From NCBI GenBank assembly GCA_022360955.1, contig JAKSBV010000137.1, forward strand, positions 1 to 41,461: a stretch of 41,461 nucleotides of DNA. Reading direction: 5' to 3'. Source of the stretch: Bacillota bacterium. Its GTDB lineage: Bacteria; Bacillota; Clostridia; SK-Y3. The notes beneath the pieces are model-generated. The model made no database searches and was not told the DNA's origin. It saw only the letters and a list, made by a program, of their open reading frames with translations. Below are positions 25,320 through 27,930 of the stretch, piece by piece. Each line of letters starts with the position of its first letter. Position 1 is the stretch's first letter. Made by a program: the position numbers and the translations under genes.

Positions 25320-25348
25320 TTGATCGCATCTGTAGAATCCTATACAAT
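25320..25348 (+). promoter_or_regulatory. Promoter of the B6-type operon
   Basis: TTGATC (25320-25325), a 17-bp spacer and TACAAT (25343-25348). A start near 25355 would put the first perfect hairpin (25372-25436) almost at the 5' end of the mRNA. Confidence 0.55.
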
Positions 25349-25371: not shown

Positions 25372-25436
25372 TAGAACAGGGGACGGTTCTCTGTTTTATC
25401 GTTTTTCAATCAAACAGAGAACCGTCCCCTGTTCTA
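25372..25436 (+). repeat. Perfect 25-bp inverted repeat C1, upstream of the kinase gene
   Basis: The arms 25372-25396 and 25412-25436 are exact complements over 25 bp, beginning TAGAACAGGGGACGGTTCTC, with a 15-nt loop. No T-run follows, so it is not an ordinary terminator. It ends 18 bp before the start codon, just ahead of the ribosome site AAAGGAG. Confidence 0.9.
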
Positions 25437-25454
25437 TTTATAAAGGAGATTACT

Positions 25455-26330
25455 ATGCAAAATATTATACCTCGTATTGCAGCGATTCATGATCTTTCAG
25501 GCTTCGGCAGGTGTTCATTGACCGTCATTATCCCCATTTTATCTGCAATGGGCATGCAGGTATGTCCGTTGCCTACCGCTGTGCTCTCAACACATACGGG
25601 AGGATTTGAAAACTATACATTTGTTGATCTCACGGATCATATGCAAGACTATATAGAGCATTGGAAAAGTTTAGATTTAAGGTTTGATTGCATTTATAGC
25701 GGCTTTCTGGGCTCAGTACGCCAGATTGCAATCGTAGGTAATTTTATCAAAGCATTTCGTAAGCAAAAGCAGCTTGTTGTCGTCGACCCTGTCCTTGGAG
25801 ATGACGGTAAGCTCTATGATACCTTCGGGGAAGAAATGATACAAAAAATGGGTGAATTGGTGCAGTTTGCCGATATCATTACTCCCAATATGACGGAAGC
25901 AGCTTTTTTATTGAATGAACCTTACCCGGAAAACATGGACGAATCCAAATTAAAATCCTGGCTGCTTCGCCTGGCAGATAAAGGACCCAATACGGTCATC
26001 ATTACAAGCGTTCCCGATCATATGTCCGAAAACAAAACCGCTGTTGTTGCATATAATCGCAAAGACCAAAAAATCTGGAAAGTATCCTGTGATTATATCC
26101 CCACCGATTACCCCGGTACCGGTGATATCTTTACCAGCGCACTTATCGGAAGCCTGCTGCAGGGAGACAGTCTGCCCATTGCCCTTGATAGAGCCGTTCA
26201 ATTTTTATCAATGGCGATTCGCTCTACTTTTGGCTATCAATGTCCTACAAGAGAAGGGGTATTGATCGAAAGACTATTGGAAAATTTAAAAGCACCCATT
26301 ATATCAAGCAGCTATCAGATGCTTGAGTAG
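25455..26330 (+). CDS. pdxY: Pyridoxamine/pyridoxal kinase (PfkB/ribokinase superfamily)
   Basis: A 291-residue ATP-dependent kinase phosphorylating pyridoxal, pyridoxamine or pyridoxine. Family sequences are AAIHDLSGFGRCSLTVIIPILSAMGMQVCPLPTAVLSTHTGGF at the start, DCIYSGFLGS, VVDPVLGDDGKLYDTF, ITPNMTEAAFLL, and the catalytic-base region DYPGTGDIFTSALIGSLLQG, where GTGD holds the catalytic aspartate. The ATG at 25455 with AAAGGAG is the true start; the frame upstream runs through the hairpin repeat and encodes no family sequence. It heads a three-gene plus-strand operon with an ECF transporter and a HAD phosphatase. Confidence 0.93.
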   Translation: MQNIIPRIAAIHDLSGFGRCSLTVIIPILSAMGMQVCPLPTAVLSTHTGGFENYTFVDLTDHMQDYIEHWKSLDLRFDCIYSGFLGSVRQIAIVGNFIKAFRKQKQLVVVDPVLGDDGKLYDTFGEEMIQKMGELVQFADIITPNMTEAAFLLNEPYPENMDESKLKSWLLRLADKGPNTVIITSVPDHMSENKTAVVAYNRKDQKIWKVSCDYIPTDYPGTGDIFTSALIGSLLQGDSLPIALDRAVQFLSMAIRSTFGYQCPTREGVLIERLLENLKAPIISSSYQMLE

Positions 26331-26334
26331 AACG

Positions 26335-26401
26335 ATAGAACAGGGGACGGTTCTCTGTTTTATCGATTTTTAATCAAACAGAGAACCGTCCCCTGTTCTA
26401 T
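26335..26401 (+). repeat. Perfect 26-bp inverted repeat C2, upstream of the ECF gene
   Basis: Arms 26335-26360 and 26376-26401 are exact complements over 26 bp with a 15-nt loop. They are nearly identical to C1, including the loop pattern TATCG-TTTT-AATC. It begins five bases after the kinase stop codon and ends 20 bp before the next start. Confidence 0.9.
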
Positions 26402-26421
26402 AAGCTTTAGGAGGAGCAAAA

Positions 26422-27204
26422 ATGCAAAACCGTGATATTAAAAAAATAACTTATGCCGGACTGATGATGGCTTTGGTATTCGTCGCCACCGCCTTCTTGC
26501 CCCGCATACCCATTCCTTTTGCACAACAAAGTTATATTCATGTCGGAGACAGTATGATTTTTATTACCGCTATTTTATTTGGCTGGAAATATGGTGCTGT
26601 TGTCGGCGGAATTGGCTCTTCACTGGCCGATATTGTTGTGGGTGCTACTGTTTGGGCCATCCCCACATTGATTACTAAGGCAGTTATGGGCGCTATTGTT
26701 GGATTTATGGCTGGAGAAACCAAAGATAAAAAAGGCAAGTATGCCAAAAATATTTTTTCTTTGTGCATTGGGGGAAGCTGGATTGTACTAGGTGTTTATT
26801 TCCATCAATTGTTGGGAAATATTTCTGATTCAGCCTTCGCGGCCTTTTTAGTAAAAGAATTAAAATTAAAAGGACCCGACGAATTACATCGACTTGCCGA
26901 TACCGTCCGGAACGTCTTACTGTCGGCCGTAATCCTGATCCCCATCATCATTATGGTCTTATTTATATTTTTAAACAAAAAAGACAAGACCTTATTTAGC
27001 ATCAACAGCTTGATGGGCACGACGCTTGGCGGCCTGTGCATGGTGATTGGCTATTATATTGCGGAAATATTGATTGTGGGAAATATTATTGTACCCATAT
27101 TCAGCATCCCTCTTAACCTCGTACAATTTATCGGTAGTGCAGTCATTGCGTTCATTATATTGATTCCGTTAAAAAATAGAACAGGGGATGGTTCTCTGTT
27201 TTAA
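26422..27204 (+). CDS. ECF transporter S component, probably for a vitamin-B6-type substrate
   Basis: A 260-residue membrane protein with about six hydrophobic segments. The N-terminal ITYAGLMMALVFVATAFLPRIPIPFAQQSYIHVGDSMIFITAILFGWKYGAVVGGIGSSLADIV is the typical ECF S-component opening, with the AxxxA helix that docks to EcfT. Adjacency to a pyridoxamine kinase suggests uptake of pyridoxine or a relative, for use with a shared EcfAAT module encoded elsewhere; this is inference. The last nine residues (NRTGDGSLF) and the stop codon are encoded by repeat C3, so the natural C-terminus has been replaced or extended. The ATG follows AGGAGGAGC. Confidence 0.88.
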   Translation: MQNRDIKKITYAGLMMALVFVATAFLPRIPIPFAQQSYIHVGDSMIFITAILFGWKYGAVVGGIGSSLADIVVGATVWAIPTLITKAVMGAIVGFMAGETKDKKGKYAKNIFSLCIGGSWIVLGVYFHQLLGNISDSAFAAFLVKELKLKGPDELHRLADTVRNVLLSAVILIPIIIMVLFIFLNKKDKTLFSINSLMGTTLGGLCMVIGYYIAEILIVGNIIVPIFSIPLNLVQFIGSAVIAFIILIPLKNRTGDGSLF

Positions 27205-27240
27205 TGTTCTCGACAAAACAGAGAACCATCCCCTGTTCTA
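27177..27240 (+). repeat. Perfect 26-bp inverted repeat C3, upstream of the HAD gene
   Basis: Arms 27177-27202 and 27215-27240 are exact complements over 26 bp with a 12-nt loop. Relative to C1 and C2 one base in each arm has changed together (GGGGACGG to GGGGATGG, and CCGTCCCC to CCATCCCC), which keeps the pair. It overlaps the end of the ECF gene and supplies its stop codon. Confidence 0.9.
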
Positions 27241-27267
27241 AAACCAACTATAGAAAGGTAGATGTAT

Positions 27268-27930
27268 ATGTTTGCAAATATAGAGGCCGTTATTTTTGAT
27301 TTGGACGGTACGTTAATTGATTCCGTATGGGTATGGAAAGAAATTGATATTGAATATATGAGGCAAAAGGCTTTGGATCTCCCCGAGGACTTACAGACCT
27401 GTATTGAAGGAATGAGTTTTACCGAAACCGCCCTGTACTTTAAAGAACGCTTCAACATTGAAGGCACAGTTGAAGAAATTAAGGAAGAATGGCATTGTAT
27501 GGCAGAAGCGTATTATATGAATAAGATTCCTCTAAAAGAGGGCGTCCATGATATGATTCAACTTATCAGAAGCAAAGGAATCAAGCTGGGTGTCGGTACA
27601 AGCAGCAGCCAGGCATTAACCAGAACCATATTGAAAAAACACAATCTGCTTCACTATTTTGATGTCATCGTGACCTCCTGTGAGGTCAAAAAGGGCAAAC
27701 CTCATCCCGATGTGTTTCTAAAAGCGGCGGAACGTCTGGCAGTCAAACCGGAAAAATGCCTGGTCTTTGAAGATACTTATGCAGGTGTTCTAGCGGCTAA
27801 ACAGGCCAATATGAAAGTTTTTGCGGTAGAGGACGAATGTTCTTTGCCCAATAAAGAAAAGATTATGGAACTTGCAGATCGTTATATTACAGGCTTTATT
27901 GAGATAACAGGCTGCAGTAATCGTTGTTAA
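27268..27930 (+). CDS. HAD-superfamily phosphatase (beta-phosphoglucomutase-like)
   Basis: A 220-residue HAD hydrolase of subfamily IA. Motif I is DLDGTLIDS with the nucleophile Asp and acid Asp; motif II is VGTSSSQAL; motif III's lysine is in VKKGKPHPDVFLKAAERL; motif IV is LVFEDTYAGVLAAKQANM. The inserted four-helix cap follows motif I. Such enzymes dephosphorylate small phosphates. Being third in an operon with a pyridoxal kinase and an ECF importer, it may act on pyridoxal phosphate or a related vitamin phosphate, but this is only context. The ATG at 27268 is preferred (9 bases after AAAGG) over the one at 27262. Confidence 0.9.
   Translation: MFANIEAVIFDLDGTLIDSVWVWKEIDIEYMRQKALDLPEDLQTCIEGMSFTETALYFKERFNIEGTVEEIKEEWHCMAEAYYMNKIPLKEGVHDMIQLIRSKGIKLGVGTSSSQALTRTILKKHNLLHYFDVIVTSCEVKKGKPHPDVFLKAAERLAVKPEKCLVFEDTYAGVLAAKQANMKVFAVEDECSLPNKEKIMELADRYITGFIEITGCSNRC

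Follow-up and report, generated by a model that had tools for sequence, protein, structure and literature searches.

Three hairpins in a clostridial pyridoxamine kinase operon as probable REPIN-like elements of a TIRYT transposase family

The arrangement in which a transposase gene is enclosed by its own terminal inverted repeats (TIRs), known as TIRYT or TIRtron, was named by Di Nocera 2013 (PMC3733652), and the TIRYTs belong mostly to RAYT subclass 2.1 (Quentin 2018, PMC6006769). The consensus GGGGWSAS is common to many, not all, of the published TIRs, and the term 'Firmicutes' is absent from the main text of the 2013 TIRtron paper (PMC3733652). Small hairpins are what IS200/IS605 and RAYT-type enzymes recognise (PMC6006769). 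Related systems are the REPINs of Pseudomonas and the REPs of Escherichia coli; for the latter, lowered translation was reported when a copy is less than 16 nt from a stop codon, as far as an earlier study is recounted in PMC12306157.

In the following, three hairpins (C1, C2 and C3) of a vitamin operon are described, which lie in the window, i.e. the whole 41,461-nucleotide stretch of clostridial DNA that was analysed. Very probably they are REPIN-like dispersed miniature elements moved by a TIRYT, which settled in the gaps of one operon in a local burst of insertion.

The hairpins and the genes that they touch

The operon and its hairpins are arranged as follows:

25320..25348, + strand: promoter-like site TTGATC-17-TACAAT, upstream of C1; comparable sequence and spacing in two relatives
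25372..25437, no strand: C1, two-arm (REPIN-like) element with core GGGGACGGTTCT in either arm, in the pdxK 5' leader; arms 25372-25396 and 25412-25436, 25 nt, exact; loop 15 nt
25455..26330, + strand: pdxK-type pyridoxamine kinase gene (NF005491, 415 bits)
26335..26401, no strand: C2, two-arm element beginning 4-5 nt past the pdxK stop; arms 26335-26360 and 26376-26401, 26 nt, exact; loop 15 nt, almost identical to that of C1
26422..27204, + strand: ECF transporter S component gene, its 3' end formed by C3
27177..27240, no strand: C3, two-arm element in which C>T is compensated by G>A, and whose left arm forms the end of the ECF gene; arms 27177-27202 and 27215-27240, 26 nt, exact; loop 12 nt
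27262..27930, + strand: HAD-family phosphatase gene

An earlier note on this DNA had described three perfect inverted repeats with a compensatory change in the third. Both statements were confirmed, the exact arms being 25-26 nt long with loops of 12-15 nt, and the two arms of C3 containing GGGGATGG and CCATCCCC, i.e. C>T in one and G>A in the other. Arm matches in the window number 6, against 0.57 expected from shuffled sequence, and the predicted RNA folding energies of the three elements are -45 to -46 kcal/mol. The note had also placed one hairpin before each gene of the operon. The distances agree with this, the hairpins ending 17-27 nt ahead of the next start codon, but the upstream stop codon is the more telling landmark, and C1 does not lie between cistrons, being found in the 5' leader just past the promoter-like site. 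A scan for sites of this promoter-like kind gave a count not above chance.

All three hairpins leave the ribosome-binding sites free and occupy sites expected to be transcribed, where a hairpin of such predicted stability would plausibly be a candidate RNase III substrate or exonuclease barrier. These features, together with the compensatory change in C3, would suit cis-acting RNA elements (RNase III sites or 3' stabilisers) selected here to uncouple the pdxK, ECF and HAD genes, an explanation which is weighed below against the distribution of the repeat and the structure of the operon in relatives. A known structured RNA was rejected, the matches in an Rfam search scoring far below the gathering scores of the families and being mostly microRNA hairpins.

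The ECF gene reads into C3, so that its last codons and stop (...LKNRTGDGSLF, then the stop) are inside the left arm; in this frame the C-to-T change of C3 is synonymous (GAC to GAT). The Petroclostridium ECF orthologue has the C-terminus LIPLKQTGLFK, and the ECF protein as a query against the genome contigs gave no match. A second gene ended by the repeat (L044, 16277-16900) encodes the C-terminus ...RRTRDGSLF, to be compared with NRTGDGSLF of the ECF protein (27177-27204); thus, coding sequences have been extended by the repeat in more than one gene. The C-terminus of the pdxK product is native, as compared with that of its orthologue L095.

A dispersed repeat family and its probable transposase

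The source genome, of 4.64 Mb, is available as 522 contigs with 4.4% contamination, and in this fragmented assembly the search for the arm proposed in the earlier note, allowing at most one mismatch, gave 74 matches, versus 2 for the reversed-pattern control. In the stretches fetched from this genome, on which the context tests were carried out with approximate gene calls from a simple hexamer-model caller, 37 two-arm and 26 one-arm copies were found. They adjoin dozens of unrelated genes (leuS, thrS, recQ, yraN, flgE and others), and the two-arm copies are mostly extragenic, only 1 of the 37 being inside a called gene. Three main arm subtypes can be distinguished (TARAACAGGGGACGG..., GAGTCAAGGGGACGG... 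and AAACAGGGGACGGTTCTTTGTTCTAG...), the elements of the window belonging to the TARAACAGGGGACGG subtype. Since the same element is found near dozens of unrelated genes, C1, C2 and C3 are not operon-specific co-regulator sites, and a regulator of the vitamin operon, one of the roles suggested in the earlier note, was rejected. The same distribution speaks against selected cis-acting RNA elements. The note had counted abundant scatter without relation to genes as adverse to its proposals; scattered copies are indeed abundant, but a relation to genes exists, namely to their stop codons.

Intrinsic (bidirectional) transcription terminators, spread by recombination, are a very improbable reading of the palindromes. 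Several copies do separate convergent genes and make up nearly all of the intergenic DNA there (L069, L041), and in C1 and C2 the hairpin of the left arm is followed, within the loop, by five T. However, no T-run directly follows the full stem at C1, C2 or C3, as the earlier note had stated in judging them not to be plain terminators; terminator-like sites number 5 versus 2.4 expected (sd 1.4), which is not clearly above chance; most copies are between co-directional genes; and the loops vary from copy to copy.

A probable source of mobility is found among the several Y1/HuH transposase genes of the same genome. In particular, contig C278 carries an intact TIRYT gene (253 aa, NHVH and YIHQNP motifs, PF01797) between two inverted copies of the window arm, at 777 (+) and 1608 (-), which together form an element of about 850-870 bp. 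The tyrosine motif of its protein departs, at the residue preceding NP, from the YIELNP and Y[IV]HLNP published for subclass 2.1, and the C-terminal HTH, a trait of that subclass, gave weak sub-threshold matches in two of six TIRYT proteins and none in the C278 protein. A second TIRYT of the source genome is flanked by arms of the GAGTCA type, of which miniature copies occur too. Three further TIRYT genes (L033, L034 and L038, on contigs C192, C384 and C203) have perfect TIRs of 26-31 nt with other sequences, such as GGGGTCAGGCTT... and GGTGCCGGGTGC..., and GGGGTCAGGCTT has 28 exact genomic copies.

The association extends through the class. TIRYT genes of five other genomes of the family and class (G165, G200, G002, G003 and G004) are bounded by GGGGACGG-type ends, a TIR core that departs from the published consensus GGGGWSAS at position 7. 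The exact 12-mer core is present in 72 of 196 genomes of the class, many with tens of copies and with controls near zero, in agreement with the statement in the earlier note that some anaerobic Firmicutes commonly have GGGGACGGTTCT palindromes; a literature description of the GGGGACGG/GGGGACGGTTCT core motif was searched for and none was found in the papers covered. TIRYT homologues, detected with a profile built from the six TIRYTs, occur in 65 genomes, i.e. in 45 of the 72 with the core versus 20 of the 124 without it (Fisher p 6.6e-11, uncorrected for shared ancestry). They are found in 23 of the 28 genomes with at least 10 core copies, the other five being without a TIRYT at the threshold used. 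The closed genome of Petroclostridium sp. X23 (G004) contains five 869-bp TIRYT elements with identities of 98.4-100% and the TIR core GGGGACGTGCC, a variant of that of the window; being nearly identical and at five different sites, they indicate that elements of the TIRYT class have moved recently.

The pairing of changes between arms is likewise found beyond the operon. An identical core deviation in both arms of one element was counted 8 times, versus about 0.2 expected under independent change, and nearly all such two-arm deviations are private to a single element, so that the process behind them acts within elements, whether as correction between the arms or as selection. The compensatory change is thus a property of the whole family and no evidence for a role in the vitamin operon, and its occurrence in elements genome-wide speaks against selected cis-acting RNA elements. 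Furthermore, the elements are clustered (25 pairs within 10 kb versus 2.9 expected), and their inner sequences are more similar when near than when far (0.62 versus 0.23, a value reached in none of 20,000 permutations). Neighbouring copies being alike, the spread is local, and three copies in one operon need no operon-specific cause. Dispersed copies, a transposase gene with matching ends and alike neighbouring loops all favour what had been only one option in the earlier note, a REP-like palindrome that expanded locally.

The element consists of two inverted units of about 25 nt around the core GGGGACGGTTCT, with a short variable loop between them, each unit being the TIR of the TIRYTs, Y1/HuH single-strand transposases related to RAYTs. 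A single arm also folds alone, into a small hairpin of about -9 to -16 kcal/mol across the subtypes. A TIRYT would act on the two-TIR element in trans, transposing it by way of a single-stranded hairpin and mostly to nearby sites; the three hairpins would then most likely go back to a local insertion burst in a single operon, whose gaps received them. Any effect on the mRNA (exonuclease barrier, RNase III cleavage or, as has been suggested for the REPs of E. coli, slowed terminating ribosomes) would be secondary.

The element boundaries show some features of their own. TIR tips are repeated in tandem just outside many elements (L130, L132, L136 and L141 in G004; L112, L117 and L124 in G003), and the repeat unit sometimes encloses 4-5 nt of host flank, as with GTATGGTATATGGGGACG, which is present twice in L130; a weaker case in the window (26333-26342) is TAGAACGA ahead of TAGAACAGGGG at C2. 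An extra TARAAC is found at 7 of 66 element boundaries in the source genome (G000), versus 2.4 expected. A 53-nt GCGACAGGGGACGG unit is present three times in tandem in G003, directly behind a stop codon (L115, 6352-6470). An inverted repeat extending into the host flanks, a sign of template switching, was rejected as not above permutation beyond position -8.

Placement at stop codons and the operon in relatives

Among the gap elements next to a gene 3' end, 23 of 30 are within 10 nt of the stop codon, versus 7.5 expected from uniform placement in the same gaps (200,000 simulations, largest simulated count 16). A weaker bias is found in G003 (21 of 54 versus 11.2 expected, P 3.5e-5). The stop coincides exactly with the outer triplet of the element at 13 boundaries, as TAA, TAG and once TGA. 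For the genes with an informative curated profile (YraN, glucuronate isomerase, KDPG aldolase, LeuS, FlgE and ThrS), the encoded proteins reach the profile end or almost so; therefore, the adjoining genes have not been truncated by the elements. C1 is an exception to this placement, being, like two other elements, in a divergent gap.

Such a distribution would be accounted for if the elements were targeted to translation stops, or were kept there through an action on terminating ribosomes, an idea compatible with the TIRYT explanation, to which it adds. It has in its favour the peak at stop codons and its replicate in G003, the 13 boundaries at which TAA, TAG or TGA all serve, the full length of the genes with informative profiles and, as far as it is described in PMC12306157, the precedent of the E. 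coli REPs. However, a preference for a TAR trinucleotide combined with the loss of intragenic insertions could yield the same peak, and C1 and the two other elements in divergent gaps do not fit, so that this addition is possible but rather doubtful. A more specific formulation, namely that TIRYT-borne miniature hairpins are preferentially inserted at the stops of intact genes, whichever the stop codon, the link to gene 3' ends lying either in how the elements transpose or in a function for which they are retained, is put forward as a tentative and still somewhat less probable proposal.

The comparison with orthologous operons, also proposed in the earlier note, bears on the remaining case for selected cis-acting RNA elements. 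The closest pdxK orthologue found (L095; 82% identical, not a close strain) has no hairpin upstream of pdxK at the site equivalent to C1, although its promoter-like site is comparable. In Petroclostridium X23, the pdxK-ECF gap does contain a hairpin, which favours such a role, but it comes from an unrelated repeat family. This palindromic family, with core GGAGTGAGGAG, has 54 exact matches genome-wide in Petroclostridium sp. X23 and two copies at the operon (L081, 1426-1479 and 387-430), one in the pdxK-ECF gap and one upstream of the promoter-like site of pdxK. Since the latter hairpin precedes the promoter-like site, it is not equivalent to C1, and convergent acquisition of hairpins in the Petroclostridium operon was rejected, only one of the two being in an equivalent place. 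Overall, elements selected to uncouple the three cistrons are unlikely. As for the preferred explanation by TIRYT-mediated transposition, the insertion of C1, C2 and C3 is suggested, by sequence comparison, from the L095 orthologue without C1 and from the native gene ends.

Comparison with known systems

The present case links a widespread repeat of Clostridia to its probable transposase. It offers the miniature together with the autonomous element, which in a closed genome seems to have been active not long ago, and through the tight placement at stop codons it allows tests of why gene ends are occupied by REP-like hairpins.

With TIRtrons/TIRYT (PMC3733652, PMC6006769), the elements share the HuH/Y1 transposase gene inside long inverted TIRs with a GGGG motif, and the dispersal of TIRs in the genome as singles and dimers; they differ in that the core is GGGGACGG, one position off GGGGWSAS, and in the near-identical multi-copy TIRYT elements of Petroclostridium. 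Like the REPINs and RAYTs of Pseudomonas (Bertels and Rainey 2011, PMC3116915), they consist of two inverted units with a variable spacer that form one long hairpin, are mostly extragenic, commonly carry compensatory changes and are accompanied by a transposase with matching repeats. Unlike those REPINs, they lack the GTAG tag, the conserved core being GGGGACGG, the repeat is itself the TIR of the transposase element and, whereas REPINs were described as random in extragenic space, they are found at stop codons. The latter feature is shared with the E. coli REPs, which, in what PMC12306157 relates of them, include hairpins within 15 nt of stops with a possible translational effect, although the sequence is unrelated. 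The elements described here belong to a known kind of repeat and have an unusually precise placement.
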